Positions 3,858-58,036 of a DNA stretch of 64,000 nt are shown here, in pieces. The translations under genes were made by a program, and so were the position numbers. This stretch comes from Cystobasidiopsis lactophilus (Eukaryota > Basidiomycota > Agaricostilbomycetes > Agaricostilbales > Chionosphaeraceae). The notes below the pieces were generated by a model, which saw nothing but the letters and a program-made list of their open reading frames with translations, was not told where the DNA came from and ran no database searches. The stretch lies in NCBI GenBank assembly GCA_001599975.1, contig BCIO01000003.1, forward strand, positions 992,001 through 1,056,000, written 5' to 3'. Position 1 is the stretch's first letter, and each line of letters begins with the position of its first letter.

Positions 3858-6236
3858 ATGTCACGCTCTGGGACGCCGACACGCTCTCGCATTGCAGACA
3901 CCACCAAGTCCAAGGCGAGCCCAGAAGGTAGCAGTCTTGTCCCTCCCTGAGCCAATAAACAACAGAGGCTGAAGTCCGCCTGATGACTGCACAGTGCGAG
4001 CGGCCATCTCTGCGCTACGGGCCAAGAAGGCGGCTGCGTCCAGACCGGCCAAAGCAGAGGACGAGCACCCGGATCCCTTCAACACGGGCGACGTCTCATT
4101 CGAAGACGATGCGGGCGACGCTTTGGGCCTGCCACGCATCTCACAGGCCATTGCCTCAGCCAAGACTACAGGTCCGTGTTCTTCCCTCGTAGACATTGAT
4201 TCGGTCTCAAGAAAGCACGCTGCGCGACAGGCAAGCTGCTGCTCACGTCCAGGTCATTGAAGGCCATTCCGCAGACCGTCTACTCCGAGCTCCTATGTGC
4301 GTTGCTGCCCCACTTTAGCCTCTCAGTATAAGGCTAAAGTCTGGCGCTTCATGCACAGCCCCGGAGTCACCGCATCATCCAGCGAACAAAGCTCCACCGT
4401 CCAAGTTGCTCAAGACCAAGCAGTTCAACCTCGACCTGAGCACTCCGGCCGACGCCAGATGGTACGAGACGGTGCCTTTGAGCGTGCTCAAGGCCTCGGC
4501 CAACGACATCACCGAGCTGGACGACTCGCTCTGCGGCTTCGCGGACCTCCAGCAGCTCGACCTCCACTCCAACTCCATCCCCTCCTTACCTGACGGCCTC
4601 TGGAACCTGTCCTTGCTCACCATCCTCAATTTGAGCTCCAACAAACTTTCGGGATCAACACCCACCGCCCTCCTCGCGCTCGACAGCCTGGTCTCGCTCG
4701 ACCTTTCGCACAACAACTTCTCGGCGCTCTGGCCACCGCAAGCGTGGAAAGCCCAAGTGAAAGCGTTGGTCAAAGAGGGCCAGCCGGCGGCGGATGGGGA
4801 CATTTCATTGGACTCGTCGGGCGGCAGTGACTTCTGGGCCGCCTTCCCTTCCGCCACCCCGACGCTCGGCGGGCCCGAGAAGCGGGAGATCCCGGTGACC
4901 AGCACGCCGTTTCCTTGCCTCAAATCGCTCAATCTGTCGTCCAACAACTTGACGAACGCCTCGCTCAAGAACAAGGACGAGGGGACCTACGTCGAGTTCC
5001 CGATTCACTTGACCCAGCTCAATCTCTCGTCTAACAGCTTCTCCTCCCCTCTCCCTCGAGAACCTTTCGCCAACCTCTCTTCTTTGGCGACACTCTCCTT
5101 GGCTTACAATGGGCTTGGCGACGACGTCTTCTCAGCCTCCACCTCCACCGACACCACTTTCTTGCCAGCCCTCACCAATCTCGACCTTTCCACCAACGCC
5201 ATCGACTCACTCGCCCCGCTAGAAGGCACATTTTCAACTCGAACGATCAGCTGGCAAGGCCTGTCCAAAGCCCTTTCGCTCGCCCTCCCGCCAAACACGA
5301 AGGGTGATTTGTTGGTCACCATCCAAGGCAACCTGCTCCGGGACGAGTTGGTGCGGCGACGGAAAATGGCCAAGGAGCTCAAGACGACACCCAAGCCTAG
5401 CCAGCCTGCGTCGTTCGAGGACGACTTTGAAGGGCTGTCGCTGACTTCCTCCTTCGCCGCGGCCCCTTCTTCTTCTCGACCTACGGCAACTGCTTCTTCA
5501 GCATCAGCTCTTTCTCCTTCAATAGTCGGACTGGGTGTGCTCAAGCTCTCGGGGAAATCGTTGACCGCCTTCCCCGAGTCGGCCACACCCTCAGAAGCGG
5601 TGGCGGAGATCGACCTCTCGAAGAACCTTCTGTCGTCCATCCCTTTCGATGACTTTCAACAGCACAATTGGTCTACTACCCTTCGCAAGCTAGACTTATC
5701 CCGCAACCGGCTCACCTCGCTCTCCCCAGGCGCTGGGCCACTGACCGCGCTCGACTCGCTCAACTTATCGGGCAACTCCATCTCTTCCTCTGACGCTCTA
5801 TCTGCCGTCGCTTCCTTCGCGCCGAATTTGAAGACGCTCGATCTCACGCTCAACTTCTTGCCCTCCATCCAAGGCATTGACCAACTCCTCCTTCGGCCAT
5901 CCGGTGGTCTGACTACCCTCAAGCTGGCTGGCAACCGGATCCAAGATTTGGAGCCTTTGGTAGAGGTGGCGAAAGAGGTGCAAAAGGATGGAAGGCCGTT
6001 CAAGTGCCGCGAGCTCGACCTGTCCGACAACTCCATCGGCCAGCTGGACCCACTGCTCGGCGTGCTGCCTTTGGATGTGCTTGCTGTTGGAGGTGGGCTG
6101 TCTTCTAGTTGTTCAAAGTCCCTGTCGGTCCTCAAGTTCGATCGCAGGTAACACCTTCCGGATCCCGGCGCGGCGGGTGTACGAGGAGGGAGGGACCAAG
6201 GGGCTTCTCAAGTGGCTGAAGGATAGGATAGAATGA
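3858..6236 (+). CDS. Leucine-rich repeat protein, LRRC40-like
   Basis: Exon 1 starts MSRSGTPTRSRIADTTKSKA at 3858. A GT-AG intron joins it to VRAAISALRAKKAAAS, a second leads to KLLLTSRSLKAIPQTVYSELL, and a third (about 4294-4359) leads into the long exon with LLKTKQFNLDLS. About 15 LRR units follow, with the plain cytosolic consensus LxxLxLSxNxL (for example LTNLDLSTNAIDSL and LRKLDLSRNRLTSL). A last intron at about 6090-6150 joins LAVGG to NTFRIPARRVYEEGG, and the gene ends KDRIE. The short basic N-terminal lead, the long LRR array and the NTFRIPRR-type ending match the LRRC40 family, which is conserved but of uncertain function. There is no signal peptide or membrane segment, so it is probably intracellular. 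About 700 residues. Confidence 0.9.
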
Positions 6237-28274: not shown

Positions 28275-30178
28275 CTAGTGCTCGCACAGGTTGAAGGGCC
28301 GGCGGAAAGCCGTTCCGCTCATGTCTTCACGGATCAGCGTGCGCTCGCTCATCAGATCCAACCTGATGGCGTCTGCCTCTTCCCTCGACAAAGACCCGGG
28401 AACCAACATCGCAATCTGGGTCAGCAGCTCGACGGGCAGCTTTTGGCCCAGTTGGGACTCGGCCAGGGCGCGCAGGATGATGGGCTGCTGCTGAGGCGCG
28501 ACCGCTGTCGCAGAGGGGATGGAGTAGGAAGGGTCGCAAAGGAACAAGGCGACAATCTTGCGCTGGCCGGGCTTCGAAGGGTCCGCCAGCGAGAAGGGCT
28601 GAACCCGGTGCTGGTAAATGTTGGGGAAAGCGATACACCGGCCTTGCTTCGTCAAGATTTGCCCGCATTTTTGGACACAGGCGTGGCCGCTGTGAAGAAT
28701 ATTTGGTTTTAAGCCTGGGTGGCAAATTATAGAAGAGGACTGCTGACCGGTAGATGCCATAGAGCAACCATGTGCAATATCCGTCCCCTTGAGCGTGGTA
28801 GGGTGGTTCTTGGACGGCCGTTTGGAAGGCCAGATACGACGAAGTGACATTGTGCTCGTCGAAATACTTTTGTATACTCGTTAGGTATACTCTTTTGTTC
28901 GGTGGGCAGAAGAAAATGGCTTGCGTAGATGAACGTGGAGACTATGGAGTCATTCTGCATGCCTTCGACATGCCAAGAGCCGCCCTCGTAGTCGGGTCTG
29001 TCCGGGGTGAGGTGAATATTGGCGAGTTTGACGATTATCTGCAGCTTCGACCCCTTCAAGCTGACGCGCTTCGCTTCTTGAATCACGTTCAGCGCGCCCG
29101 TGTACGCACTCTTGGCTTCTGGAAGCGTTTTAGGGAAAGACTTTTTCCACTCGACGTATGTGTCGTCGTCCGCTTCCTTGAGATTGGCGGCCCAGTAATG
29201 CGCGTCCTCCCCATGTCCGCCAGGCCAAACGCAGGGCAGAGCCTCAGTGTAGATTCTCTCAACCGGATAGTCGAGGTAAGGCACCATTTTGAGCTTGGAG
29301 GCGGTCAGAGGGCGGAGCAGGTCGGAAAGCACGCGCTCCCAAAGTGGAACGGCCTGACGCACAAGCTCTGCGAGAACTGGAAGCAGCTCTGGAAAGCGCC
29401 GGTCGTCCAAGTTGTTGATATAGGGCGAGCAGAGTGTCACGTTGCCGTCAGCATCGACGTTGAAGTCAGAAGGCAGCCAGGCGAATTTGGAGGAGAGGAA
29501 ACCGCGGGCGGCAAAGCGATGGCCTGGATCGAATCCGGACAATTGGACAGCTGATCCGTCAGGCTGCCTAACCCAGGACGAATCGTAGACCAGGGGGTAG
29601 AGCGAAGGGTGGACGAGATCGAGAACTTGCTGATCCGAATTTGGATGCCAGTCTGGTTCCAAGCCAGCTTCAAGCTTGGCAACAGCCTCCAGCAACTGCG
29701 ACTGAAGGGTCGGGCTGACGATCGAGTCGGACCGCCAAACGCGTTCGCAGCAGCCCATCTCAATCCCGTCTTCGCACAGCTTGGTGTAGCCTTCAAGCTC
29801 TTGAAGGACATACTCGACCTGCTCGCACTCCTGTGAGACTCGCTGCCTCAGTAGAGGACACGATCTCACCATGGTCTCCGTAAGCCGATTCGCCAACGGC
29901 TCCGACTCCTCCTGCTCCAGAACTTCGGCCTTCCACTTCGCGCGGATCAAAGGGTCTCGACACTTGGACTGCCACTCGGGTTTTTCCCGAATGGTACTGG
30001 AAAGGTCATTCATCTTCGTTTCGATTTTCGCTCGCGCTTTATCGGCATCGATGTCGACTAAATCGAATGCGACAGGGTAGCGAGGCGCAAGGGCGGCGGC
30101 GACGCGCGAAATGCCTGCATCAGCCCACGGCTGAGGGTCACCTTCTGCCCTAAGAGGCTCCGGAAACATCGAATCCAT
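28275..30178 (-). CDS. DUF4246 protein, array copy A
   Basis: First of four tandem paralogues. Starts MDSMFPEPLRAEGDPQPWAD. It has the conserved blocks QELEGYTKLCEDGIEMGCCE, LVHPSLYPLVYDSSW, WLPSDF, SYINNL or PYINNL, PLWERVLSDLLRPLT, GGSWHVEGMQNDSIVSTF, FDEHNVTSSYLAF, GRCIAFPNIYQHRVQPF and GQRKIVALFLCDPS, ending RRPFNLCEH. DUF4246 is a fungal family of unknown function. HVE in the WHVEGM block, QH after CIAFPN and RK in the last block could form the HxE...H...R set of a Fe(II)/2-oxoglutarate dioxygenase; that is inference. Four exons; the intron at 28867-28924 has a GC donor (GCAAGC) where the other copies have GT. About 580 residues. Confidence 0.9.
28867..28924 (-). other. GC-AG intron in DUF4246 copy A
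   Basis: The donor is GCAAGC and the acceptor ACAAAAG. It joins STFIY to YFDEHNVTSS, the same site where copies B, C and D splice with GT donors. Confidence 0.8.
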
Positions 30179-30450
30179 CGATGCGGTCGGTGAAGAACAG
30201 GAGAGGGAGTCCCCGCGACGTTGGCGTTGCCGTTCAACGGTGGCGATCGACTAGGACTGTGTACCGGCTTACGCTTGGAGGAGACGCGTCACTCGAGTAG
30301 TCTGGCCGGTCCTAGATCAACGACTTTGCAACCAGGGTATGTAGTGAGAAGAAGACCGTTGTTGCAGGGACAGCACGAACGAAACTCAGCCTAGCCTGCA
30401 AGCGGATACTGGTAGCCCATCTAGAACACGCTCTTGACTGAGTGAAGTGA

Positions 30451-32343
30451 CTAGTGCTCGCATAAGTTGAATGGCTGGTTGAATGCCGTGCCCTTTTGGG
30501 CGGACTCCTGCCGAATCAGCGTGCGCTCCCGCATCAGGTCCAACCGGACCGTCTCCGCCTCTTGCCTGTCCATAGATCCGGGCACTAGTTTAGCAATCTT
30601 GCCCAGCAGCTCGGATGGAAGCTTTTGACCCAGCCGGGAGTCAGACAAAGCCCGCAGGATCAGGTGCTGTTGCTGGGGCGCCACTGTCGTCGCAGAAGGG
30701 ATGGAGTAGGATGGATCGCACAGGAACAAGGCAACGATTTTGCGGTGACCAGGCTTTGAAGCGTCGGCCAGGGCGAAGGGCTGCACCTGGTGCTGGTAGA
30801 CATTCGGGAACGCGATACAGCGACCTTGCTTGGTCAAGATCTGGCCGCGGTCTTGCACACAGTGATCACCTCTGACCGTCTCTGTCAATCCATGGTCTTA
30901 TAGAGAGGGACCGAACGAGGACGCTGACCGATCAAGGCCGTAAAGCAGAACTGTGCAGGCCGAGTCGTCTTGCAGATGGTAGACGGGCTCGGCTACGGCA
31001 GTCCGGAAGGCCAAGTGCGACGGCGTAACGTTCTCTTCATCATAATACTGTATCCGATACTGGTAAACCTTTGGCGGCCTAAGAGAGAGCCACCTCACGT
31101 ACTGTATATGAAGGTAGACACTATCGAGTCGTTCTGCATGCCCTCGACATGCCATGATCCGCCCTCGTACTTTGGATTTTCCGGAGCGAGGTGGATGTTT
31201 GCCAACTTGACGACGACCTGCAGCGTCGATCCCCTCAAGTCGACCCGCTTAGCCTCGTGGATGACGTCCAAAGCGCCCGTATAGCCGTCCTTCGCTTCCG
31301 GCAGTATTTTGGGTAAAGACTGTCTCCACAAGTCCCGGGCTTCATAATCGTCTCTGTCGAAGTCCACATCGCCGTTGAACTTAGGGCGTGGAATTTCTTC
31401 GCCGGGCCAAATGCAAGGCAACGCCTCCGTCTTGCCTTCCCAGCCAAGATAGTCGTCGTAGGGCTCCATTTCCAACTTAGATGTGGTCAATGGGCGGAGC
31501 AGATCCGATAACACATGCTCCCACATGGGCACGGCCACGCTGACCAGCTTGTTGATGACCCAATAGAGTTGGGGGAAAAGCTGGGTGTCCAAGTTGTTGA
31601 TGTAAGGCGAGGTGAGTACCGCTTTCCCCTGTGCGTCGATTTGAAAGTCCGAGGGCAGCCAGGCGTATCGGGTGGATAGGAAAAGAGGGTTTGTGGCCGT
31701 GCCATCGCTTCCCCCGAACTCCGGCACTACGGCGACCGATCCATCACTTTGCTTCATCCAGGACGAGTTATAGATTAGAGGATAGAGCGAGGGGTGGACG
31801 AGGTCGAGGACTTGGTGGTCGGCGTTCGGATGCCAGTCTGGCTCTAGCTCGGCCTCGATTTTGGCAACGGCCTGCAGCAGTCGAGAGTGCAGCTTGGGGC
31901 GCACGACCGAATCAGATCGCCATACCCGCTCGCAGCAGCCCATCTCGATGCCGTCTTCGCACAGCTTGGCGTAGCCTTCCAGCTCTTGCAGAACGTACTC
32001 CACCTGCGCACCGCTTTTGAGCCTTGCTGCGTGCCTTTCGACGCAGGTCGCTCACCATGCGACCAGACAGTCGGGTTTCGAGCGGCTCTGATTCCTCGTG
32101 CTGTAGAACTTCGGCCTTCCATCGGCCACGAATCTCGAGGTCGCGAAACTTGTGCCGCCATTCGAGCTTCTCCCGAATGGTGTTGGAAAGGGCGTTCATT
32201 TTAGTTTCGATGAGCGCTCGTGCTTTGTCAGGCCAGTCGAACAAATCGAAGGCAGAAGGATATCGGGGCGACAGGGCGGCGGCAACGCGCGACAAGCCAA
32301 CGTCCTCCCATGGCTTGATATTCTTTTGAGACTTTGGCACCAT
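30451..32343 (-). CDS. DUF4246 protein, array copy B
   Basis: Second paralogue, same strand and exon plan as copy A. I chose the ATG at 32343 (MVPKSQKNIKPWEDVGLSRV). The frame continues upstream as LTNDP without another ATG, as it does in copy D. It has all family blocks: QELEGYAKLCEDGIEMGCCE, LVHPSLYPLIYNSSW, WLPSDFQIDAQGKAVL, SWHVEGMQNDSIVSTFIY, YYDEENVTPSHLAFRTA, GRCIAFPNVYQHQVQPF and GHRKIVALFLCDPS, ending NQPFNLCEH at 30451. The intron near 31080 can be read with donor GTACGT or GTGAGG, which changes only two or three residues. All motifs are intact, so it is probably functional. Confidence 0.9.
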
Positions 32344-32670
32344 CACTGGATCGTTGGTCAATTGCTGTATAATACTCGCCGGCGCAGATCAAGGTGGCTG
32401 GCGCTGGTCAAATCGAAGCGAGACCAAACTGCGGCCACGCCGGCAAATTTAAGGGGTCAAGAGGACCGAGCACGGCAGGAATTTGGTCGAGGCGTTCTAC
32501 GATGGTAATCCACATCATTTTCAGACACGGGAGAATGGGACTTCAATGCAACCAGAAGGCCGTCAAACTCGAGGAGTAAGTTCTTCATGTTGCCTGCAAG
32601 TTGAAGTGACCTGTTGCCACCCGCCGATGGTAGCTTTGACCCAAGCGCACCATTAGATCAGCAGGAGCGA

Positions 32671-34587
32671 CTAGTGCTCGCACAGGTTGAAGGGTTGGTT
32701 GAAAGCTGTGCCCTGGTTCGCAGACTCTTGCCGAACCAGCGTGCGTTCGTCCATCAGAGCCAGCCGAACCGCTTCCGCCTCTTCTCTGTCCATGGCCCCA
32801 GGGACCGACCTTGCAATCTTGTTCAACAGCTCGGGCGGGAACTTCTGTCCGAGGCGGGACTCGGCCAGAGCGCGCAGGATCAGATGCTCCTGCTGTGGCG
32901 CAACCGTCGTTGCCGAAGGAATGGTGTAAGATGGGTCGCACAAGAACAAGGCGACAATCTTGCGGTGGCCGGGCTTCGAATGATCGACCAGCGAGAAGGG
33001 CTGTACCTGGTGCTGGTAGATATTTGGGAAGGCGATGCAGCGGCCTTGCTTCGTTAGGATCATGCCGCGGTCCTGTACACAGTCGTCATCTCTATTTGTG
33101 GATTTGAAGAGTAATACGAGCCATTAGTAGTCGTAGGACCACCGGAAGAAGCACGCAAGCGCTCACCGATTGAGGCCGTACAACAAGACCGTGCAGTCGC
33201 TGTCGTCTTGATCATGATAGGGTGGTTCTGTGACAGCAGTGCGAAAGGCCAAGTGAGAAGGAGTAACGTTGAATTCGTCGAAGTACTTCCTCCGAGTTTG
33301 TCAGACTGTTGACTACAATACACCAAAAGACCAGGGGCGACAACTCACGAAAATGGAGGTGCAGACGATCGAGTCGTTCTGCATGCCTTCGACATGCCAG
33401 GAACCACCGCTGTATTTTGGACGCTCCGGGGTGAGGTGAATGCTGGCGACTTTCACGATGACCTGCAGCGCCGAGCCTTTCAAGCTGACCCGCTTCGCTT
33501 CCTTAATCACGTCTAGCGCGCCCGTGTAAGCGTCTTTCGCTTCTGGAAGAGCTTTAGGCAAAGTCTGCCTCCATGGTTCCAGAGCCTCGTAGTCGTCTTC
33601 CCCGAAGTCCACATCGCCGTCGAACTGGGGGTAAGGGATGCTGCCACCAGGCCAGATGCAGGGCAAGGCCTCCGTGTGGCCCTCGTATCCAATATAGTCC
33701 TCGTAGGGCTCCATCTTGAGCTTCGAGACGGTCAAGGGACGGAGCAAGTCGGAGAGCACGCGCTCCCACAACGGAACAGCCGCGCCCACGAGTTCGTTAA
33801 TGACAGCATAAAGTTGTGGGAAAAGTTGGGCATCCAGATTGTTGATGTAGGGCGATGTAAGCACCGCTTTGCCGTGGGCATCGATCTGAAAGTCGGAAGG
33901 CAGCCAAGCGTATTGCGTGGAGAGGAAAAGCGAGCTGATGGCCGAGCCATCACCGCGGCTGAACCCTGGCAGCACGTCGACCGATCCATCAGGCTGCTGG
34001 ACCCAGGACGAGTTGTAGATCAAGGGGTACAGCGAAGGGTGGACGAGGTCAAGCACTTGGTGATCGGCGTTCGGATGCCAGTCTGGTTCTTGCTCGGCCT
34101 CGATTTTGGCGACGGCCTCCAGCAGCTGAGATTGGAGGCTGGGCGAAATGTTGGAGTCGGACCGCCAGACCCGTTCACAGCAGCCCATCTCTATGCCATC
34201 CTCGCAAAGCTTGATGTAACCTTCCAACTCTTGCAAGACATACTCGACCTGCGTCCCATTCTGAGTTCCTTTGGCCTGTATCCAAGTACATTAACTCACC
34301 ATCGCTTCAGACAGTCGGTTCTCGAGCGGCTCCGACTCCTCTTGCTGCAAGACTTCGGCCTTCCATCGGGCACGAATCTCGGGGTCGCGACACTTGTGTT
34401 GCCATTCAGGCTTCTCCCGAATGGTGTTGGAGAGGTCGTTCATTTTGGTTTCTATGAGGGCTCGTGCCTTGTCAGGGCAGTCGAACAAATCGAAGGCCGA
34501 GGGATAACGCGGCGAAAGGTCGGCGGCAACACTCGAGAGGCCGACGTCCTCCCACGGCTTTGTCTCTCTGTCAGGTCCCGGAGCCAT
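32671..34587 (-). CDS. DUF4246 protein, array copy C
   Basis: Third paralogue. Starts MAPGPDRETKPWEDVGLSSV at 34587; the frame is open further upstream, but the alignment with copies A, B and D favours this start. Exon 1 ends LSEAM; exon 2 carries EGYIKLCEDGIEMGCCERVW, LVHPSLYPLIYNSSW, PLWERVLSDLLRPLT and SWHVEGMQNDSIVCTSIF. A GT-AG intron (GTGAGT donor) leads to YFDEFNVTPSHLAFRTAVTE. The last exon gives GRCIAFPNIYQHQVQPF and GHRKIVALFLCDPS, ending NQPFNLCEH at 32671. By eye it is closest to copy B. The shared exon structure says the copies arose by tandem duplication. Confidence 0.9.
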
Positions 34588-34910
34588 TCGTGCAGGTCGC
34601 GGATCAAGACGAAGAAAAGGAATGCTCGGCGCGCCGCCAGCACGGCGGCAGGGAGAGAACCGAGCGCACCGTGACGGGCCGGCTCCAAAGGGGGCGAGAC
34701 GCGTCACGAAGGCCGCTGGCAACGTTTTCTACCCACTATTCAAGTAGAGGAGCAAGGTGCAATACCGCTAGCAGCGACAGCTATAGAGGAGTGGAAGTCG
34801 GGAAAAAGAGGACTTTAATTTGCCACCCAGCTTTGTGGAGGGGCGGAGACATTTACGCCCGCTGTTGGTATGTTTCGCTTGGAATGAATGAGAGAGCAAC
34901 ATCAAAGATA
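34588..34910. other. Spacer between DUF4246 copies C and D
   Basis: Promoter side of copy C and 3' flank of copy D. It holds one TTTGCCACC at 34819-34827. The spacers between copies A/B (30179-30450) and B/C (32344-32670) show no gene either. Confidence 0.35.
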
Positions 34911-36791
34911 CTAATGCTCGCACAAGTTGAACTGACGAGTAAAAGCGGTCCCTTTCTCCTCCCAATCTTCCCTAATCAGAGTGCGCTCGCTCATCAAATC
35001 CAATCTGGTCGCCTCTGCCGCTTCCCGGCTCATCGATCCAGGAACGAACGAAGAAATCCTGCTCAGAAGTTCGGGCGGAAGCTTTTGACCAAGGTGAGAT
35101 TCGGACAGGGCTCGCATAATCCATTCCCTCTGTTGTGGCGCCACGGTCGTTGCAGATGGGATCGTATAAGAGGGATCGCACAGAAACAAGGCCACAATTT
35201 TGCGGTGGCCGGGTTGTGAATGGTCGGCAAGTGAGAAGGGCTGGACTTGATGTTGGTAAATGTTTGGGAAGGCGATGCAGCGACCTTGCTTAGTTATGAT
35301 GGCGCCGCGGTCTTGGACACACTCGTCATCGCTGATTTCCATGAGGATGGTCAGCGCCCGGTTCGACCTGCCAGAGGGCTTGCCTGGAAAAGCACGCGAT
35401 GCACTGACCGATTGAGGCCATAGAGGAGGCAAGTGCAGTCCTGGTCATCTTGGTGATGGTAAGGCGGTGAGGTCACAGCTGTTCTGAAAGCCAACAGGGA
35501 CTGTGTGATGTTCTCTTCGTCGTAGTACTGCGTCAGTTGGGATTAGTGGTGTTTTGAAAGTGAGAGCGAAGGGAGGACGAACAAAAATAAAGGTAGAAAC
35601 AATAGAGTCGTTCTGCATGCCCTCAACATGCCAGGAGCCGCCTTCATAGTCGGGCTTGTCCGGGGTGAGGTGAATGCTGGCCAGCTTGGCGATGACTTGA
35701 AGCGTCGATCCTTTCAAATCCTCCCGTCTGCCCCCTTTAATCGCATCCAGCGCGCCATCGTAAGCAATCTTAGCGTCAGGGAAGACTTTGCGTTGCAAGT
35801 TCCTCCACTCGTCGAGCGCTTCGTCGTCGTCCTCGTCAAAATCGACGTCACCATCGAATTCGGGGTACGGTATGCTTTGGCCTGGCCATATGCACGACAA
35901 AGCCTCTGTCTCTCCCTCTTCGCCATCTTCATAGGGGACCATGGCCAGCTTGGAGGCAGTCAAAGGGCGCAACAAGTCGGTCAGCACGCGTTCCCACAGA
36001 GGGACGGCTTGAGTCACCAGCTCGTTGATGACAGGATAGAGATCCGGAAACAGCCAAGGATCCAAATTGTTGATGTAGCTGCCAGGGACGAGGGTCGCTT
36101 TGCCCGACGAGTCGACTCTGAAATCGGAAGGCAGCCAGGCGTACTGGGTCGATAGGTAGGTTCCGTTGATGTGCGCCTCTCTCTCGAACCCCGGCGAGCG
36201 CGCGAGCGAGCCATCCGGCTGCTTCACCCAGGACGAGTTGTAGACCAGCGGGTAGAGCGAAGGATGAACCAGGTCCAGCACTTGGTCGTCCGAGTTGGGG
36301 TGCCAGTCCGGCTTTTGCTCGGCTTCAATCTTGGCCACCGCTTTAAGCAGCTGAGAGTGCAGCTCGGGGCGAATAAGGGAGTCAGACCGCCAAACACGCT
36401 CGCAGCAGCCCATCTCGATGCCGTCTTCGCATAGCTTGGCATAGCCCTCTAATTCTTGTAGGATGTACTCGACCTGGGTGCTCGTCAGGAGAGTTTCCTG
36501 GTACAATAGATGAGGAGAAGAGCTTACCATCTTTTCAGTGAGGCGTTGTTCGGGTGGCTCGGACACCTCCCCTTGAAGGATCTCCGCCTTCCACTTAGCC
36601 CGAATCCCGGCATCGCAGAACTTGCGCTGCCAGTCAACCTTCTCCCGCAGCTCGTCCGAGAGTCCATCCATTCTGGTCTCGATCAGCGCTCGGGCTTTGT
36701 CTGGGTACATCTCGATGTCGAAGGCCACAGGATAACGGGGATGCAACATGGCGGCGACACGCGAGATGCCAGTGTCTTCCCAGGCTTTCAT
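34911..36791 (-). CDS. DUF4246 protein, array copy D
   Basis: Fourth, most distal paralogue. ATG chosen at 36791 (MKAWEDTGISRVAAMLHPRY); upstream the frame stays open as LTNSGGPSQVPI without an ATG. It carries EGYAKLCEDGIEMGCCERVW, LVHPSLYPLVYNSSW, WLPSDFRVDSSGKA, SYINNLDPWLFPDL, an acidic insert FDGDVDFDEDDDEALDEWR, SWHVEGMQNDSIVSTFIF, YYDEENITQSLLAFRTA, GRCIAFPNIYQHQVQPF and GHRKIVALFLCDPS, ending TRQFNLCEH at 34911. It starts head-to-head with the PhyH-like gene about 520 bp away, so the two may share a promoter region. Confidence 0.9.
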
Positions 36792-37311
36792 GATGGGTAC
36801 TTGCGATGGACCTCCTGAGTTGGTCAATCTTTGCCTGGCGCTTGGTGATTCGATTGGACTGGCGTCGACACCCTATCCCTCTTTGGGGTCACAAGAATGG
36901 TCGGTGAAGAACAAAACTCGCTTCTGCCATCAGTCCACGCCAAGAAGAGGGACCGAGCTCGTGAAGAGAAGGTGTTCGAGAGCCGGGCGCGTTGCCCCAA
37001 GGCGAGGCGGACCGCAGACTTTTTTGGCGCGTCCAAGCAGAGCTCTAGTTAGGGTAGACAAAATGTGCTGTCCCAGAAGGGGATCAGAAAGCAGGGAATC
37101 GCTGGCACAACGCAAATTAAGTCGCCGGTCAAATGAGGGACGCGCGGCAAACAATGCTGTTCGGATTGATCCAGCTACAGCCCCAAGTCGAACAGCTGTA
37201 TCGTATTCTGTTTTCATTGAGTGGGGTAGCGCGCGGTTGGCGGCCCTGGCAAGCTCACTGATGATGAGAAGAGAGAGCTTGGTCTTCGACTTCCATCGCC
37301 CGGCGCTTGAA
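36792..37311. promoter_or_regulatory. Divergent region between DUF4246 copy D and the PhyH-like gene
   Basis: About 520 bp between two divergent starts; it should contain both promoters. An open frame runs through it in phase with the PhyH-like gene, but the conserved part begins only at 37312, so I treat it as noncoding. Confidence 0.4.
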
Positions 37312-47971: not shown

Positions 47972-49551
47972 ATGGATTACCCTGCTTGGATAAGCAGGCT
48001 GGACGAGCCAAAGACCGACGAAGAGAGGCCAGCAAGGAGGAAACCCCAAAAGGCACCGGATGGCCTGCCAATGGGCGACTTGCTTCCACCGCCTGCTCTG
48101 GCTTCCAGCCTGCCCAACGAGCTTTACGCTAAGGATCCGAGCTGTGCGCCAAGCAAGGGAGCCGGAGAATCTTCATCCACATTCAGCCCTCTGTCGACAC
48201 CGTCAAGGACTCGATCTCTAAACGTCAGTTCTGGCAACACGACTAGCCAACGGCCTTCCGTCAGATTCACCACTGGTCTTTCACCCCGAGCCATGGTGCC
48301 CGGCGATCCTGCAGGCAATCCCTTTTCATTCAATCCCGCTATCCACCAATCCCGAGCATCGAACTCTGTCCCTAGCCAGCGGCCTTCCCGCAACAATTCC
48401 TTGCCAAAGCTTCCTGCAGAGCCAAGCCGAGGACTCGGACCCAGCACTTGCTCTCCCACACTGGGCCCGGCGCTGTCAAGCGCCACTTCCAGTAGACAAT
48501 CTTCTCTGGACTCTGGATATGCAACAGCACCCCCAGAGGACACCAAGTTGTCTATTTCCAGCATTTCTAGATCGCCCTACCTTGCCAACCACCCGCCCTA
48601 CCTTGCCAACCGCCCCGCTAAAGAGCCCATGAAAGTTGGTGGGAGCACCAACGCTCGTTTCAATGGCGGCTGGGAGAAGAAGAAGGAGGACACGTACACC
48701 GATAGTCGCTCCAGCGCGAAGCAAGGCGTCAACAAGATCATCGGCGAAGGGAAATCGAGGATTGACGACAGTGTATCAGGTATTGCCAATAACGCCATGT
48801 CGCCCAAGTTCTACTCGCCCTCATCCACGAGAGCCCCAGTAACAAAGGAGCGAGTGATGTCTTGGCCAATACAAACTCATATGGCGGCAAAGCCGGTCCC
48901 AGTCGTCGTACGTTTTCCTCACTTGAGCATCGATTTCGGGCCTGACCTGCCAATCCAGCAAAATGCTGTGCGGACCTCAGTATAATGCACGCTACTGGAT
49001 GCAAGTTCTACCGCGAGCCAGCCACGGAGGTCAATGCCGAAAGAATCAAGAATGCGTTTGAAAAGTGCTGTCCGGGTGTTCTTGTGGCGCACTCCACCGG
49101 CTGTGCACGAAATGGGGCATACTGAGCTCCTTGACTTTCGGTTGTATCGACGTCGGGTACGTCATTTCGTCGGTCTATAGTGTAGTCAGGAAGGCATTCA
49201 ACTTGACCAGAGCAGATACCCATCCATTGCGCGTAAGTCAGCAACCACTTGTGATTCCAGGACGATTAGCAGGGAGGGCTCAATCATGTCCTCCAAAGGC
49301 ATCGCCGTCTTGGAGCCCATCAGTCGCGACGCCTCTGAGCCGGAGGCCCATCCATGCTATATGCGCCGTTTGTTGTGTTTGATTCCCCTCAGGCGGTCGA
49401 CTCCAAACTGTGCAAGCTTGTTTTTCAGAGGTGTACAGGTGTCATGCCAAGTAGAGTAGACTGTGTTCAGACCGCTTTTCGTGCAAATGAAGAAAATATC
49501 CGGGCTAAGTTTACAAGCGCAAAGAAGGGAAGAGCGAGACCCAATACATAG
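47972..49551 (+). CDS. Ser/Pro-rich protein with possible C-terminal CUE-like helices
   Basis: A long exon with inner start MDYPAWISRLDEPKTDEERP at 47972 (frame open from 47858) is low complexity: Ser, Pro and Asn dominate, with a short repeat SPYLANHPPYLANRP. It reaches KERVMSWPIQTHMAAKPVPV near 48.9 kb. Downstream pieces FYREPATEVNAERIKNAFEK (about 49.0) and DSKLCKLVFQRCTGVMPSRV plus FRANEENIRAKFTSAKKG (49.4-49.55) look like CUE-type ubiquitin-binding helices. They could be later exons of the same gene; the joins are not resolved. Without them the first exon stops at 48985. Function unknown. Confidence 0.4.
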
Positions 49552-49568
49552 AAGCCACAATGCCGAGG

Positions 49569-51990
49569 TCAATCAGAGTCGTAAAGAGCCTTTCCGGGCG
49601 GGCGAATGATGGGGTATTTGCGAGAGGAGGTGGAGGCCCATTGCGGCTTGGTGGCTTGGAACGCCGACGCGACGCCCATCGTCTTGGGCTTGGACCTTGG
49701 CTTGGACGAGGGAGAGGCAATGCCTTTGGTTTTGGACTTTTTGGAAAGGGATCGGACGTTTGCGCCGCTGGAGGATGAGGAGCCGACCGAATCCGGGATC
49801 GTGTTGGAGCGGATCGACGTGGACGAGCTGCCTCCGACTGAATCTGGAACCATGTCGTCATCCTCGTCTTCGTAAGAAGCTGCGGGTGGGAGCCGGATGG
49901 AAAGCGGAAGCTGCTCGTCGATTTCGATTTCGACGCTGGCAAGCTCGCTGCGACCAGGTCGCTGACTTCGCATGGGAGGCGAGTGTCCTCCACTGGACGA
50001 TTCGTAATGGTGATGTATCTCGATGACCGGGACGAGCGTGCCTTCCTCCTCGTCCTCTGACTCCTCAGCTGAGCTCGAACTCGACAACTCGGATAGGTCG
50101 GACGAGATCGTGGTTTCGCTGACGTAGGCGGCGTTGATGATGAGCTTCTCTTGCTGGGGGATGCTGAGCTTTCGGCGGCGCTTGGGCTGTGAAAGCTTGC
50201 GGCGGCTGGGAGCTGGCGCCGGATCACTGTATGTCGCCACCTTGCGTTTCCGCGGACCGACCACGGGTTCCGGGATGAACATGTCGACTTCGCCTTCGAC
50301 GTACTCCCAACCTGTGCGGAACACATAAGCAAGAGCTCTAAAGGGGAAGTTGGGAGGAGGCAAGACGCACTCGGCTTGATGCGTGGCGGCGGCGGCGCCT
50401 TTGGCTTGGGTGGTTTGGCTGCCTTTGGCACCAAGGGTTTGGTATGCTTCTTGACCTTCCGTGGCTGTGCCGCTCCAGCCAATGCCCTTTTTGAGGGCGA
50501 GGGCACCACCTTCGGTTTGGCAGGCGACTTGGCCACGCCGGCCGACTCGGATCTCTTGCGCTCCTTCTCTTCCCCCAGCAGCTTCAACTGTCCTTCCACT
50601 GCCACCGACAGCATTTGGACATCGCCTTGGAAGAAGACGTCGAACAAGCTCGACCAGAGGCCGACGGGCGCGGGCAGCTCAAAGTTGACAAAGATGCACT
50701 TGGCCTCGGGAAGCTGATCCACAGTCGAAATGGACTCGTTGAGGTGCGAGAGCTGAGGGTTGATGACCCGGGCCAGCTCGCGGACCAGACGCTTCGTTCC
50801 TGGGACCTTGAGAGACGTGCCAGCCACGATGAGCAAGTCGGGGCGAGGGGTGCACATGAGGTCGCGCTGGGTGATGGCGCCAACAGAGTCGGCAACTGTC
50901 GGGCTGGCGTCGCCGTAAAGAACGACGGAGGGCTTCATGACTCCCAACCCTCTCGACCGTTGCTCTTGCGCCTGCCTCTTTTCCTCGATCGCAGCGCAGG
51001 CTGGACACGCCGTCGGACGGCCTTGCTCCAACTCCGCGAGGTGCTCGTCCGAGATCACCTCAAGGTGGGAGCACTTGGTACAGGTCACGGACTGCAGGGT
51101 GCCGTGCAAAGGCACGCACTTCGGGAACGTGTCGACCTTCTTGGTGGATGCGCTCGGCGCCTTCTTGGTGGGCGTGGCCGTTCCGGACGTGCTTGCCCCA
51201 GGCTCGGGCGTGGCCGCGTGAGACGAAGAGGAGGAGTAGGACTCGCGCTCCGGGTCGTAAGGCAAGACGGAGAGCAGGCCATCGGCCATGGGCAGCGGAG
51301 GCTTCCGCTTCTTCCTGGGCGTTGGTCGCTCTTCTCTGTCGCCCAGTCCAAACGTCAGGCCGGCCTTCTCCTCCAACCCGTCAATGTTCTATGCCGCCAA
51401 TTAAGTTCGAAATCCCATCTGGCCAAATGTTGAAGCAACAAACGCACCTGTGTGTATACTCTGAAGAGCTTGCCCTGGTCGTCCAGCAGCTTGAGCAGCT
51501 TGTGGAACTGGGTGGGTTGGGCGACCTGGGCCATCTTGTAGAGCTCGGCTATCATTTGGTAGTACAGCGCTGTGTTGGCCTCAGACTGTTCCACATGGCT
51601 AAGAGAACATGTCAAAGAGATGAAAGGTAGAACGAGAGCGCACGGAGAACAGGTTGGCTGAGAACAGGTCCTTGCCAGAAGTGAGGCCCGCCTTTGGGTT
51701 CTGCTCCTTGAGCGACTTGAAGAGGCCCTCGCTGGACCTGAAGTCGGGAATGCCGGCTGCACAGCTGATTCCAGCGCCTGTTGTAACCTGCCCATCAGCC
51801 AGAGCCCGCGCAAGATGCGGCCAAAAAGCGGGAAGCTGGGCGAACCCGTTATAACGGCAATGTGCCGCGCTTTGGCGATGGCTTTCGCGACCTGCTCGAT
51901 GTGCTCGGCCACATTGGACGGCTCTGCGCCATCCACATCAGGCTTCAAAGTGATCATTGAAGCTGGCGGGGCAGAACGAGGAGCGTTCAT
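49569..51990 (-). CDS. NAD-dependent deacetylase, sirtuin of the HST3/HST4 type
   Basis: Starts MNAPRSAPPASMITLKPDVD at 51990. An intron joins HIAVITG to AGISCAAGIPDFRSSEGLFK, the NAD-binding GAGxS...GIPDFR motif. Next come LFSANLF, YTQ-NIDGLEEKAG (split by an intron), the catalytic His in CVPLHGTLQSVTCTKC, a zinc site with CTKC and CPAC, and VVLYGDASP and LLIVAGTSLKVPGTKRLV. An 80-residue Ser/Thr/Pro insert separates NIDGLE from the His motif. After KAPPPPRIKP an intron leads to a 260-residue charged tail (GWEYVEGEVDMFIPEP, KRRRKLSIPQQ) that ends at 49569. The HST3/4 class removes acetyl from histone H3 Lys56 after S phase and guards genome stability. About 690 residues. Confidence 0.92.
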
Positions 51991-52215
51991 GCCGTTTTGA
52001 ACTTCGACGCTGAGCTCGCCATTGCACTTCTGGGTTTCATTAGCGTCTTTTGCCTCTGTTTGCTGCCTGGCATGGCTTGAATCATCGCAGGATTAATGTT
52101 TGGACGTTTGGATGGCCATAGATTCGCGGTTGTGCCACCTCCATGATCCGCGCCCCATTGCCGACTCCGAGGAGCGCGCTGGCTGCCGGCCCCATTCTCC
52201 TGGCTCCGAACCACC
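51991..52215. promoter_or_regulatory. Compact divergent promoter between the sirtuin and a small membrane protein
   Basis: Only 225 bp separate two divergent start codons. The plus-strand start has an ideal CCACCATGG context. No further motif called. Confidence 0.5.
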
Positions 52216-52594: not shown

Positions 52595-52940
52595 ACGATG
52601 GGGCAGGGTTCGTAATGTCTCTGGTTGTCCCACTGCCAAGCTCATCATTGCTGCTTTATAAGTGGTGCGGTTCCTTGTACTGCGATCTTATCCTACCAAT
52701 CCTGTAATCCTTCGGAAGAGGCCTCCTTACACACATTTCTTGAAACACTTGGGTCTTCAAATTCTGGAGCTTTCTGGATGTGCACCTCTTCGTCGCGGCT
52801 GCTCTGGCACCTTTTGCCCTCATTGCTTGTTCTAAAGCGACCACTGCTTCCTCGCATCCCATTTCGTAAGCTCAAATTCGGCGACTTTCTGCCCAGATAG
52901 CCACTGAAGATCAAGTCTTTATAGTGTCCAAGCAGTCGCC
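52595..52940. other. Intergenic, upstream of the F-box-like gene
   Basis: About 350 bp; no gene supported. Short frames on both strands overlap each other and lack motifs. Confidence 0.35.
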
Positions 52941-54389
52941 ATGCCCCTTCTACTCACCGACATGCCCGAGCATATTCTTCGCACCATCGCAGACGATGTG
53001 TGCGGAGATGCATGGGCTGCCCTTCGCCTGCATCATGATGAGCAGATGAGGACTTATGCGAAGTGGGACAATGTGCCGGCCGCTACAACCTGCAAGCGCC
53101 TTCTGCACCCATTCCGTTCAGCACTTTGGAGCCGATTTCAAATCAGCGTCTCGACATCTCCTTCATACGTTTGTCCGCCCTTCGCAGTAGGTCCTCAGAT
53201 TCAAGGACACGCCCGATCTCCACCCTCGGACCAGCCCCCAAACCGCTACAGAGAGGATGATTTGGAAGCCCTGCACGTCCATTTCAAGAGACTGGCCATC
53301 CCACTCTCCTACGTCTCCGATATGCGGATCAACGTCATGGGACTCAAACACCGCTCTTCGGCTGGCGTAGTCTTCCTTTTAGAAAGTCTTTTCTGCTCGC
53401 CCGGCTTCCCAACCCACAGAAAGCTCCATCTCGACATCCGCCTAAGTTGTTTTCATTGCGATAAAGAAGCTTGGCAGTTCCTTCGATCCGAATGGATCGC
53501 GCCGCAATGGGTCGTCGCCCTCGACCTCAACAGCGTTGGAAAACAGGTTGCCGGTGGCCAAGAGTTGGGCCAATCGTGTACAGAGTGGGACTTGGACGTC
53601 TGGCCTAATCTGAAGAAATTGCGCAACCGCGCAACCTTGGTCGAGTTCGCTACCAACGGGGAGCACTTCCGAGGTTCACAAGAACCAAGTCTCGACTACA
53701 GCTGGACCAAGAGCCACACCGGCCACTTTCGGATCTCCCACTTAACTGCCGAGCTAGGCTGGGGTGCGCCACCCCCCGCTTCATTCCCACGTTTCGACGC
53801 CTATGCCGACTCTTTCGCCATCACCCTCCGTTCCTTCCCTTTTGTGTCTGTTCCAGCAAATCGCGTTGACTGGAACACTATGACGCAGACATTCCCCATC
53901 ACTGCGTCGGCCCTTCGCGTCAGCTTTGACTTTACCGACTCCGACACGCACGACGCATTGCCCGCCACGCACTTCAGGGACTTTCCTGGATGGGGCAGTC
54001 TGGCGCGCTTCCCGAATCTGGATAGCGTCGAACTCATCTTCGCCCAGTATCCCCTCCATTTTTCGACGCCGACCGGTCGCCGCCGCATTGACAACCCTTG
54101 TGCAGACCTCTCAAACATCACGTCTTGCAGTCTGAAGACTCTTACAATTCTTTGCTGGGAAGCAGGATCGGAATCGAAGTTCTCGCCAACTGTTCGCCGA
54201 CAGCTGTTGGAATCACTCGCTTCGCTTATGTCTCGTACCGAGAAGGTTCCGGCGTTGGAAACGGTGCACTTGGACTGCTTCAATGTTGATCTTCCGCAGC
54301 AAGAGGTGGACAGGGTGCGCGAGGCATGCACGGCCCGAGGAACTACGTTCAACGTTGTGACACTCTCTAAAGGTAGGTCTGTTGACTGA
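52941..54389 (+). CDS. F-box-like protein, single exon, 482 residues
   Basis: Starts MPLLLTDMPEHILRTIADDV, an F-box-like N terminus (LPxHILxxIA). It continues TCKRLLHPFRSALWSRFQIS, as in fungal F-box proteins. The rest has loose LRR-like strands (HRKLHLDIRLSCFHCDKEAW, LKKLRNRATLVEF, NLDSVELIFAQYPLHFS) and ends LETVHLDCFNVDLPQQEVDR plus a short tail. One uninterrupted exon, unlike most genes here. It is not a close copy of the F-box-like gene at 15.9-17.4 kb. A substrate receptor of an SCF ubiquitin ligase is the usual role; its target is unknown. Confidence 0.75.
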   Translation: MPLLLTDMPEHILRTIADDVCGDAWAALRLHHDEQMRTYAKWDNVPAATTCKRLLHPFRSALWSRFQISVSTSPSYVCPPFAVGPQIQGHARSPPSDQPPNRYREDDLEALHVHFKRLAIPLSYVSDMRINVMGLKHRSSAGVVFLLESLFCSPGFPTHRKLHLDIRLSCFHCDKEAWQFLRSEWIAPQWVVALDLNSVGKQVAGGQELGQSCTEWDLDVWPNLKKLRNRATLVEFATNGEHFRGSQEPSLDYSWTKSHTGHFRISHLTAELGWGAPPPASFPRFDAYADSFAITLRSFPFVSVPANRVDWNTMTQTFPITASALRVSFDFTDSDTHDALPATHFRDFPGWGSLARFPNLDSVELIFAQYPLHFSTPTGRRRIDNPCADLSNITSCSLKTLTILCWEAGSESKFSPTVRRQLLESLASLMSRTEKVPALETVHLDCFNVDLPQQEVDRVREACTARGTTFNVVTLSKGRSVD

Positions 54390-54634: not shown

Positions 54635-55573
54635 TCAGCACCATTTGCCGTCGTCCTTCTTTCTCCCGCAGTTGCCGCACTTGGTGTAGTTGCAGAAGCA
54701 GGCCTCAGCCTTGCCGTGGCACTTTTGGCAGACGCAGCCGCCTTGGCAGCCTCCGTCATAAGCCGCTGTTCGAAAAGTCAGCATCGAGAAGGGGAGAGGT
54801 GGCAAAGGCAGCTGGTCACCTTTTGCAGATCCACACACGCCGCACTTGGACTCGACGCAGGCGCAAGTAGCTAGGGACTTTTCGCAGTTGGCGCAGATGC
54901 AGGTTTTCCCGGGGCACTTTGTCCACCCTGAGAGCCACATCGCACTTGAGCTATTGAACAATGTAGATTGAGAGAGGAACGCACCCTTCACTGAGCCACA
55001 CGCGCCACACTTGGCTTCTGCGCAGGCACAGGCGGCAAAGGACTTTTCGCAGGTAGAGCATAGGCATTCGCCTTCGGCGCACTTGTTGGCCATTGATTCG
55101 TCCGTAGCTGTGAGCCGACACCGAAATTGTCAGAGAGAAATCTTTCTGTGTGCTGCAGGTCATCTCACAAGTGAAGATGGAGCCCGCAGTAGAAGCGGCC
55201 ATGGAAGCGGCGGCGGACACCTTCCAGCTGCCGCCGATTTTCTTAAAGCCGCAGACAGCGCAGGCTGTGGCGACGCAAATGCAGGCGGTGCCCTTGAAGC
55301 CGCATCTACCGCAGACGTGCGCGCCAGTGCAAGGTGGTTTCAAGCTTGCTGTTTGTTTCAAGCCCCGTCAGCATACTCAAAGGTTGACGGAGAGGAGGAA
55401 GAACGAACAGCCACCGGTCGTCCCTGAGTAGGCGGAAGCATCGGTGAAGGTGGATTGGGTCTTGCAGGTGGCGCAGTTGGGTCCAGAGGGGCATTGGCAG
55501 GCTTTGGCTTTCCGCCCGCAGGTCGAGCACACGCAGCCGGCTCCGCAAGCGGCGACAGCAGCGGCCAGGGCGC
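54635..55573 (-). repeat. Five-fold repeat of a cysteine-module exon (phase 1-1)
   Basis: Modules 3 and 4 are the most alike (CEKSFAACACAEAKCGACGS against CEKSLATCACVESKCGVCGS). Modules 1, 2 and 5 are more diverged, and module 2 has lost one early Cys. Every exon is flanked by phase-1 introns of about 50-60 nt. That is the symmetric arrangement that allows exon duplication without breaking the frame. Confidence 0.85.
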
Positions 55574-56596
55574 CTAGTTAACAACATATGAGCTTTGAGC
55601 ATGGAGAGATATGAAAGAAAACGCACCAGAGCTGAGGTAGGAAGAAGAAGAGCCAAGAGCACCACTTCCGGCGGTTCCAGCAGCAGCTCCAGCGGCCACA
55701 GCGGCGGCAGTGGCAGCAGCAGCAGCTCCGGCGGCCGCACCAGGTCGAATGCCAGAGACCAGAGGTCCATGCGCTTGAGCCATGGGCGGGCTGATGTCGA
55801 CGCCGGTGGTGGAGGAGGAGCCGTTCATCTGCGAGTAGGGGCCAGAAGTGACAAAGCTGTCCTCGGGGATGTGCGACTCGGAGTCGCCCCGCTGCTTTCT
55901 TCTTCGGCGGCAGCAGCACAGAAGGAGGCCAAGAAGCGCGAGGAGCGCGACGGAGCCGACGCCACCGACCACACCTTCGACGCTGCGTCCGGTAATGAGC
56001 GCCAGTTGGGAAGAGGGAGTAAAAGAGCTTACATATGCCTGTTGGAAGTGCTCAAACCAGAGCCTCCCTCGTTGTCAGAGGCAGCATGGACACCAGCGGA
56101 ACTGCAAGCAACCAGCGGTCTCAGACCTTTGAGTCTGTGGTGACCAAGCCGAACTCACGCGGTCGCTTTCCCGGACCTGGTAGCGGACCGTCAGCAAGGT
56201 TCCCATGGCAAGTGAAAGGAGTCCAACTCACATAATGAGGCTGTTGGAGTCCAATGCGCCACCAGTGACGGTGACAGCGCAGCCAGCGCAAGCAGCTCCA
56301 GCGGTGGCGGTCGAAGCGCCAGCAGAAACGATGACAGTGTTGGCCGAGTCGGTGTTGGTCGAGTCTGCTGAGAAGCCAGAGACGCCAGCTGTAGTCGTGG
56401 CGCCCGCAACAGCCGCTGGCGAGTCGCCATTGGTAGTGGCCGGAGTTGCGGTTGTGAGCGTGGCCGTGTATTGCGAGCCCGAATCATATGCAGCGTCGCT
56501 CGGGTAAGGCGACTCTCCGTTACTGCCATAGTCGCTGGAAGGCGAGTAGTCGTAGTACTCGCTCGTGTAAGAGCTCTCGCAAAGCTTCCAGGTCAT
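54635..56596 (-). CDS. Single-pass membrane protein with five metallothionein-like cysteine modules
   Basis: Starts MTWKLCESSYTSEYYDYSPS at 56596. The outside part is Ser/Thr/Ala-rich (about 150 residues over three exons). Then come a membrane helix VVGGVGSVALLALLGLLL, a CCCRRRRK stop-transfer patch and an Ala/Gly-rich linker. The tail holds five Cys modules of about 30 residues, each C-x(2,3)-[CV]-x-C-x2-C-x(6,7)-C-x-C-x(4,6)-C-x2-C, for example CICANCEKSLATCACVESKC. Each module sits in its own exon (55409-55573, 55169-55348, 54985-55107, 54820-54927, 54635-54765). All joins are open in one frame and all introns around the modules are phase 1. It ends KKDDGKWC. This suggests a membrane-tethered metal-binding or sensing protein; function is inferred. 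No signal peptide is seen, so the true start may lie upstream. Confidence 0.85.
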
Positions 56597-56938
56597 CTTT
56601 TTGGTTTCTTGGTTGTTTTAATGAGTGGACGCGACCAAGGCCGACTTTGAGAGTAGCAGTCAAGTTTTTAAAAAGAGCGTGTGGTGTGGTTGTTGACAGG
56701 CAAAGGGCATAAGAATCGAGGCACAACAAAATGCCGTGTTGACATTCCAGTGCGCAATGAGGAGGAATGCTCGAAGCTCTGGGTGTCGCAAGATCGACGC
56801 GGCTCTTTGGAATGGACCGGCGCATCTCTAAACGTCACTGCTTAATTGCGCACGAGGGACAAGGGCAAGGCAGGGAATAAGAGATGGTGGCCACATCAGG
56901 CCAAAAGTGCAATCATCGAGGGTTGGACCGCGTCCAGC
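56597..56938. promoter_or_regulatory. Divergent promoter region between the cysteine-module gene and SLD5
   Basis: About 340 bp between two divergent starts. On the strand of the cysteine-module gene an AAAAACTTGAC-like AT-rich patch lies about 75 bp upstream of its ATG. No recognised metal-response element is obvious. Confidence 0.4.
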
Positions 56939-58036
56939 ATGTCGGGCTTCTTTGACGACGATGATGCCACGCAGGAAGAGTCACCTGCCTTCTTCTCGCC
57001 CACCGCAGGCCCGTCCAGGCGGTCCCAAGCGCCGCCGAGGAGGGCGGAACCCAGGCAGGCTCCACGCGAGCAGCAGCAAAGATATCGAGCGCCGACCGAG
57101 GACCCCGACTTGGACTTTTTGGCGCCGACGGAGGACGAGGGGAACGTGGTGCAGCGGCTGGCCAAGCGGCTGCAGAACGAGAGGAACGCGCCAGAGTTGC
57201 TGCCGGACGACCCGAACGGCGAGCTCAACACTTGCCTGCAGACCTTGATGATGCAGGTGCGTCCGCGCTGCCCTTGCCATCTCTCTCCGCCTGTAGTGAT
57301 GTCCATGCCGCGTTGATGCGCACAGCAATCAGCGGTGAACGAGCTGAGAACGGACATTGCCAATTGGGACGAGGTCGAGCATCTCCAGTTGCTGCTCGTC
57401 CAGCAGGACAACGAGCGGATCAAGTGGCTCGTCAACTCTCTCTTAAGATGCAGGCTGGCCAAGGTGCGTGCTCTGCCTCCCTCATTCAATGGGAATGTCG
57501 GTTCATCTGTGGCACAGATTGAGCAGCAGCACATCCTCCTCTCCCAGAACGAAGGCTACCGGCGTCGGCTGTCTCCCGAAGAGTCGCACTACCTAGAAAG
57601 GTGTGTGTCTGCCTCACATTTGCCACTTGGATGCGGGCTCACCCTGGCGTATTGCACAGATACCACACGCTTTACATCAACTACATGCAGACATCTGTGG
57701 CCAATTCCTTACCCCCAAAACAACGCTCTTTAGAAGAAGGCTTCATGAGTGAGTGGCGTGCTGAGCTCTTCAGATTCTGTCTGATGGGATGGTGCTGCTG
57801 GCACAGCCTTCGAGCCGGACATGGACGCCGCCGTCTACGTGCTCGCCATCCGGGAGTCAGGCCCAATCCGACTACCAGAGTGAGTTGCCTACCTAGCACA
57901 TCAGTTCTCATCTGATAGCAAGACATCGTCGTCTCACAGCGGCAATCCCCTGCACTTTGAAAAGGGCTCCATCCACCTGCTCCGCTATCGATCCGTTAAA
58001 GACCTAGTAACCACGGGCGACCTCCAACTAATCTAA
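56939..58036 (+). CDS. SLD5: GINS complex subunit SLD5
   Basis: Starts MSGFFDDDDATQEESPAFFS at 56939. After a disordered lead of about 90 residues the GINS fold begins: NELRTDIANWDEVEHLQLLL, QDNERIKWLVNSLLRCRLAK, IEQQHILLSQNEGYRRRLSP and YHTLYINYMQTSVANSLPP. The small C-terminal B domain reads DMDAAVYVLAIRESGPIRLP and FEKGSIHLLRYRSVKDLV, with the family-typical ending TGDLQLI. Five short introns. The TAA is at 58034-58036. GINS joins MCM2-7 and Cdc45 to form the replicative CMG helicase. The N-terminal extension is longer than in yeast or human. About 260 residues. Confidence 0.94.

Follow-up and report, generated by a model that had tools for sequence, protein, structure and literature searches.

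The minus strand of the window, by which we mean the whole 64,000-nucleotide stretch analysed here, carries at 56596-54635 a gene that, when the genomic sequence is spliced, gives a coherent model from ATG to stop in nine exons and encodes a protein of 502-504 residues. The anatomy of this protein, with a Ser/Thr-rich N-terminal region, one strongly hydrophobic segment and a tail built from a repeated Cys module, is directly observed. With slightly less than even confidence, we propose that the product is a single-pass membrane protein whose cytosolic Cys tail binds metal and acts as a metal buffer or occupancy sensor. In such a protein the Ser/Thr-rich N-terminus would lie outside, the chain would cross the membrane once and the tail would reside in the cytosol, where its Cys residues would stay reduced and be able to bind Cu(I), Zn or Cd. 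The five duplicated modules would bind soft metals, Cu(I) and/or Zn(II) and possibly Cd(II), through their thiolates, and the tail would serve as a membrane-tethered buffer or as a sensor of metal occupancy.

Removal of eight GT-AG introns of 50-66 nt yields a 502-residue protein in nine exons (Table 1), and use of the module 1-2 donor at 55408 instead of 55414 makes the protein two residues longer. The initial annotation had traced one frame through about nine exons over the same interval, and an uninterrupted nine-exon spliced frame was indeed found. The frame of exon 1 is open from the ATG at 56596, with an in-frame stop just upstream and the start context AAAAAGATG. Omitting the micro-exon (56176-56159) preserves the frame and leaves a 130-nt intron in its place. 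Codon-usage scores, which are weak evidence here, rank the assigned frame first among the three frames of the minus strand in 5 of the 9 exons by full score and in 7 of the 9 by synonymous score.

Table 1 Features of the Cys-module gene and its upstream region
Feature	Coordinates	Strand	Remarks
Upstream region shared with the divergent SLD5 gene	56597..56938	.	342 bp
Exon 1, start codon and Ser/Thr/Ala-rich N-terminal region, predicted outside	56232..56596	-	
Possible exon 2, 18-nt micro-exon	56159..56176	-	Uncertain
Exon 3, remainder of predicted outer region	56033..56101	-	One solution to the membrane exon, GTAAGC..CAG
Exon 4, membrane helix, CCCRRRRKQR and Ala-rich linker	55627..55982	-	Hydropathy; Pfam Mid2
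Intron 4, phase 1	55574..55626	-	GTGCGT..TAG
Exon 5, Cys module 1, 8 Cys	55409..55573	-	Alternative exon end 55415
Intron 5, phase 1	55349..55408	-	GTTCGT..CAG; alternative donor 55414
Exon 6, Cys module 2, 7 Cys	55169..55348	-	
Intron 6, phase 1	55108..55168	-	GTGAGA..CAG; sole solution between modules 2 and 3
Exon 7, Cys module 3, 8 Cys	54985..55107	-	In-frame ATG 55093 just ahead of module
Intron 7, probable, not forced	54928..54984	-	GTGCGT..CAG; 57 nt, stop-free in frame
Exon 8, Cys module 4, 8 Cys	54820..54927	-	74-76% DNA identity with module 3
Intron 8, probable, not forced	54766..54819	-	Weak donor GTGACC; 54 nt, stop-free in frame
Exon 9, Cys module 5 (8 Cys), terminal Cys and stop codon	54635..54765	-	

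The main hydrophobic segment spans residues 155-173, with a 19-residue mean of 2.48, and is followed by CCCRRRRKQR. The single strong segment bears out the earlier description of a Ser/Thr-rich outer region joined to one membrane helix with a CCCRRRR patch. We detected no signal peptide, the best 19-residue hydropathy window starting at residues 1-25 reaching only -0.97. The C-side flank of the helix is basic (CCCRRRRKQRGDSES) and the N-side flank (GGSGLSTSNRHIVEG) carries little charge. The basic cluster of a helix flank faces the cytosol, and this charge rule therefore predicts a cytosolic tail.

Residues 267-289 form another hydrophobic stretch, less pronounced than the first (best mean 1.75), which overlaps with the beginning of module 1; if it spans the membrane, modules 2-5 could come to lie on the outer side. 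An outside location for the Cys modules, reached either by a type II orientation or by a second pass near residue 270, with the modules held by disulfides in the manner of extracellular repeats on phase 1-1 exons, would be in keeping with the missing signal peptide, the phase-1 module introns, the even number of Cys residues in four of the five modules and the second stretch itself. We nevertheless consider this arrangement quite improbable. The basic residues are clustered between the helix and the tail, which under the charge rule points to a cytosolic tail, and the high score of residues 267-289 depends entirely on treating Cys as hydrophobic (once Cys is taken as neutral, windows other than those of the main helix stay at or below 1.56). 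Module 2 has an odd number of Cys residues, seven, and such dense CxC and CxxC motifs are unusual in disulfide-held modules.

The Cys residues of the tail are distributed as 8, 7, 8, 8 and 8 over five modules, plus one terminal Cys, so that the five modules of the initial annotation stand and its range of 6-8 Cys per module gives way to these counts. Translated in six frames, the window contains the common pattern CxxC-x6-CxC-x4/5-CxxC five times, every time in this gene; 30 Markov windows contain it not once. When the tail residues were shuffled 20000 times, 148 of the shuffled tails had one match and none had two or more. The Cys pattern of the five modules is far beyond chance. Seven Cys columns are invariant in the five-module alignment; CxC and CxxC motifs are present in all five modules, each of which holds two CxxC knuckles, and the first CxC is missing from module 2.

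Internal duplication appears to have produced the modules, and the closest pair among them is modules 3 and 4. These two share 20 of 33 residues and differ at 8, 7 and 16 sites at codon positions 1, 2 and 3, respectively, over the 33 codons. Over all ten module pairs the corresponding differences are 137, 144 and 173 of 317, a mild excess at the third position. An ungapped block of 85 nt common to modules 3 and 4 is 74% identical and ends 3 nt inside the predicted donors, and the genomic spacing of modules 3, 4 and 5 is exactly 165 and 165 nt. When one module was modelled with AlphaFold2 from the five-module alignment, a short hairpin was returned at low confidence (pLDDT 59.1, pTM 0.23).

At the module boundaries we listed, between fixed anchor peptides, every single GT-AG intron of 40-150 nt compatible with the reading frame. 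The membrane exon can be joined to module 1 by two such spliced solutions, both phase 1. Modules 1 and 2 can be joined in three ways, two in phase 1 and the third in phase 2 and with weaker sites, and modules 2 and 3 by a single solution, in phase 1. No unspliced reading exists at any of these three joins. Of the two phase-1 donors between modules 1 and 2, the one at 55408 (GTTCGT) scores above that at 55414 (GTGGCT). The last two joins are less constrained: modules 3 and 4 can be connected by two spliced solutions (phases 1 and 0) and modules 4 and 5 by three (all phase 1), and an unspliced in-frame reading is also possible in both cases. The earlier claim that all module introns are phase 1 is thus borne out by the best solution at the first three joins and is probable at the 3-4 and 4-5 joins; likewise, the one-to-one correspondence between modules and exons is only probable at those two boundaries, where an unspliced frame exists.

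Introns 7 and 8 could instead be coding linkers, as their stop-free lengths in multiples of three, the 165/165-nt module spacing and the GTGACC donor of intron 8 might suggest. This donor lacks G at +5 and is unlike the five donors of the neighbouring SLD5 gene. We favour splicing of both introns because modules 3 and 4 cease to resemble each other 3 nt inside the predicted donors; because the first 54 nt of the two introns are identical at only 14 of 54 positions; because their base composition is intron-like, with scores of 2.46 and 2.92 for introns 7 and 8 that 3% and 2% of known exon segments reach; and because intron 7 has a GTGCGT donor and intron 8 a branch-like CTGAC close to its 3' end. 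In our judgement there are about three chances in four that both introns are spliced.

The composition test is a weak one: the required intron 6 scores -0.4, one exon 4 segment, at 4.27, outscores introns 7 and 8, and two of the eight introns of this gene (2 and 6) fall below zero. It was calibrated on eight introns, five from SLD5 and three from the Sir2-family gene of the window, and when left out of training seven of the eight scored above zero and one scored -1.05. The second Sir2 intron, retained in these counts, breaks the frame as placed, and its boundaries are therefore unreliable; about 59 nt of the third also lie within one exon training stretch. A donor scan returned GTGCGT 7 times against 2.6 expected, GTGAGT 6 against 3.4 and GTGATG 5 against 1.0. 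The scan pattern required A or G at +3 and G or T at +5, so that GTGGCT, GTGACC and GTTCGT were undetectable by it.

A single joined gene, rather than two, is supported by the sequence: three of the module joins require introns, and modules 1 and 2 have no start codon of their own. Between the helix and module 1 the only in-frame ATGs are at 55828 and 55783, both within exon 4, and immediately upstream of the module 1 acceptor the module frame contains a stop and no ATG. A split into two genes is unlikely because the only start codons available after the helix and before module 1 sit in the exon of the helix. The locus might alternatively yield two products, one a membrane protein that stops near 55.57 kb and the other a soluble Cys-rich protein whose start lies within the tail. 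If intron 4 were retained, the former would end at 286 residues, 16 beyond exon 4 and without any module, and an in-frame ATG ahead of module 3 would suit the latter. That ATG, at 55093 on the minus strand, could start a soluble three-module product given an internal transcript; a separate soluble gene could thus hold modules 3-5 but would orphan modules 1-2, whose only candidate start codons lie in exon 4. Intron 4, moreover, has the donor GTGCGT, a branch-like CTCAT site and a sharp drop in GC (38%, against 66% and 68% in the flanking exons). We regard two products as quite improbable.

Metallothioneins in general combine a high Cys content and CxC and CxxC pairs with few or no aromatic residues. 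The tail of the joined protein contains 40 Cys in 233 residues together with 12 aromatics (6 F, 3 W and 3 Y) and 2 H. Its initial description as metallothionein-like agrees with the Cys density and the CxC/CxxC content; the spacing, the aromatic residues and the Pfam and PDB searches, which returned no metallothionein match, fit it less well. Three spacings given in the literature were sought in the protein, and none matched: the seven-Cys unit of the Neurospora/Agaricus/Cryptococcus type, CxC-x5-CxC-x3-CxC-x2-C, and the TmMT unit, CxC-x3-CxC-x4-CxC-x2-C, as they appear in PMC4755600, and the AcMT heptaCys motif, C-x4-C-x-C-x2,3-C-x-C-x4-C-x-C, as it appears in PMC12508003. The absence of these three published spacings puts the tail outside the fungal metallothionein types tested, although it may still work like a metallothionein.

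Searches of the tail against known domains gave nothing convincing. Modules 3-5 alone matched no Pfam family; the best NCBIfam match of the tail was to a zinc-finger family at E 0.48; and a PDB search by sequence with E up to 10 returned one match, to a zona pellucida protein at E 0.08, and no metallothionein. A module profile searched against PDB with E up to 10 gave eight matches, none of them significant (E 0.19-8.1); four bear the name of a zinc-finger protein and none that of a metallothionein, and PINCH, PRDM9 and CRIPT, which are among these matches, are zinc-binding. Against viral contigs, modules 4-5 (79 aa) had 15 pattern matches and the helix with its juxtamembrane part (84 aa) had 58; against prokaryote genomes, modules 3-5 (120 aa) had 11; none was upheld by tblastn.

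Two further domain types were considered and rejected. The Gal4-type Zn2Cys6 pattern, C-x2-C-x6-C-x5-12-C-x2-C-x6-8-C, fits one of the five modules, and there only across a predicted splice join, and no such Pfam match was found. A TSO1/CRC-like pattern had no match.

Around the helix, the Pfam model for Mid2-like cell wall stress sensors (PF04478) matched residues 127-179, that is the helix and its flanks, at E 7.3e-05, and narrowly missed its curated cut-off (23.0 against 23.2 bits). Three weaker matches in the same region fell well under cut-off. The CYSTM model was absent among these four Pfam matches with E up to 10, and the helix here is internal. The search reported matches with E up to 10, of which HMMER's filters discard most above 0.1. 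Mid2 has a Ser/Thr-rich outer part and one helix, as does the present protein. The resemblance is confined to residues 127-179; there is no signal peptide here, and the Cys-module tail is unmatched.

These matches bear on the main rival to a metal buffer or sensor, in which a single gene encodes structural zinc-knuckle modules whose task at the membrane is protein contact or signalling, after the fashion of a Mid2-like stress sensor, and not the storage of metal. Two CxxC knuckles per module, the zinc-finger names of half of the insignificant PDB profile matches, the weak NCBIfam zinc-finger match, the near-threshold Mid2 model at the helix and the AlphaFold2 hairpin in one module all point in this direction, but the pLDDT of the hairpin is 59 and none of the database matches is significant. 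A zinc ribbon needs four ligands, and eight Cys per ~30 residues with CxC pairs exceed the need of one such ribbon. We judge the zinc-knuckle role unlikely, though it is the alternative to be taken most seriously beside the putative metal buffer or sensor.

Inspection of the upstream region revealed no copper-type motif (Ace1-like, CuRE-like or Mac1-like) and neither TATAWAW nor CCAAT. Metazoan MRE-like sites number two against 0.78 expected, which is not convincing either way. One TTTTTAAAAA site is present.

On the far side of this region lies the SLD5 gene, which encodes a GINS subunit (56939-58036, plus strand, five introns) and is divergent from the Cys-module gene across 342 bp; its joined protein matches Pfam Sld5 and SLD5_C. 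On the other side, a convergent open frame at 52908-54386 adjoins the Cys-module gene and has no Pfam match at E 0.01, and a Sir2-family gene with introns occupies 49514-52092 on the minus strand. Farther away are four adjacent DUF4246 paralogues (28730-36872, minus strand; 53-77% identity over tblastn pieces), three with Pfam matches and the fourth, at about 33343-34635, recognized by tblastn only, and an open frame of 610 residues with leucine-rich repeats (4319-6148, plus strand). Gene content and the shortness of the introns mark the window as probably fungal. No tRNA was found in it, and no Rfam model reached its gathering score there.

Fungal metallothionein genes that are divided into many small exons and contain internally duplicated units are already known (PMC4755600, PMC12508003). 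According to the main text of PMC4755600, the Tremella mesenterica TmMT gene has 10 exons of 63-105 bp, short introns and repeated Cys units, and Cryptococcus neoformans CnMT2 has five Cys regions with spacers between them. The present gene resembles CnMT1/CnMT2 and TmMT in having Cys-rich modules, which are ascribed there to internal duplication, and differs from them in lacking the seven-Cys pattern and the TmMT unit, in the aromatic residues of its tail and in its predicted membrane helix, the word 'membrane' being absent from the main text of PMC4755600. The agaricomycete metallothioneins AcMT1/AcMT2 and their orthologues likewise combine internal duplication in a small gene with introns of ~50 bp; as described in PMC12508003 they reach up to 59 aa and carry the heptaCys pattern absent here, and that text nowhere uses the word 'transmembrane'.

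A precedent also exists for Cys-rich proteins at membranes with a suggested role in metal handling, namely the CYSTM proteins such as yeast MNC1 and plant CDT1, for which metal chelation has been proposed and, in yeast, expression under heavy-metal stress is described (PMC10217909, as excerpted). Our protein shares with them a Cys-rich chain at a membrane. CYSTM proteins as presented in that source are small and tail-anchored with Cys in the membrane, in contrast to the repeated Cys tail behind an internal helix found here.

Among the matches listed for the PubMed Central open subset, none described a natural fungal protein combining a metallothionein with a membrane helix, a result that does not prove absence. 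The phrase 'membrane-bound metallothionein' occurs in eight papers of that subset, and in PMC4890327 it stands in the title of a reference dealing with dendritic cells of the mouse; 'metallothionein-like domain', found together with 'transmembrane' in the Frankia paper PMC4531530, is likewise part of a cited title. Cys repeats usually occur in free-floating proteins, and a membrane-tethered version would therefore be unusual.

More speculatively, and doubtful on present grounds, the gene could represent a new class of membrane-anchored, exon-modular thiolate metal binder, similar to a stress sensor, whose cytosolic tail would change by whole phase-1 module exons and would couple the metal load at the membrane to signalling or transport. 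The initial annotation further envisaged that the protein might sit at the surface or the vacuole and that its module number might differ between strains. The modular fungal metallothioneins of PMC4755600 and PMC12508003 bind Cu and are described in those texts without a membrane anchor. If the tail proposed here is indeed a metal-binding array fixed at the membrane, buffering or sensing would be placed where metals enter or leave the cell, and the symmetric exons would offer a simple route to changing its capacity by whole modules.
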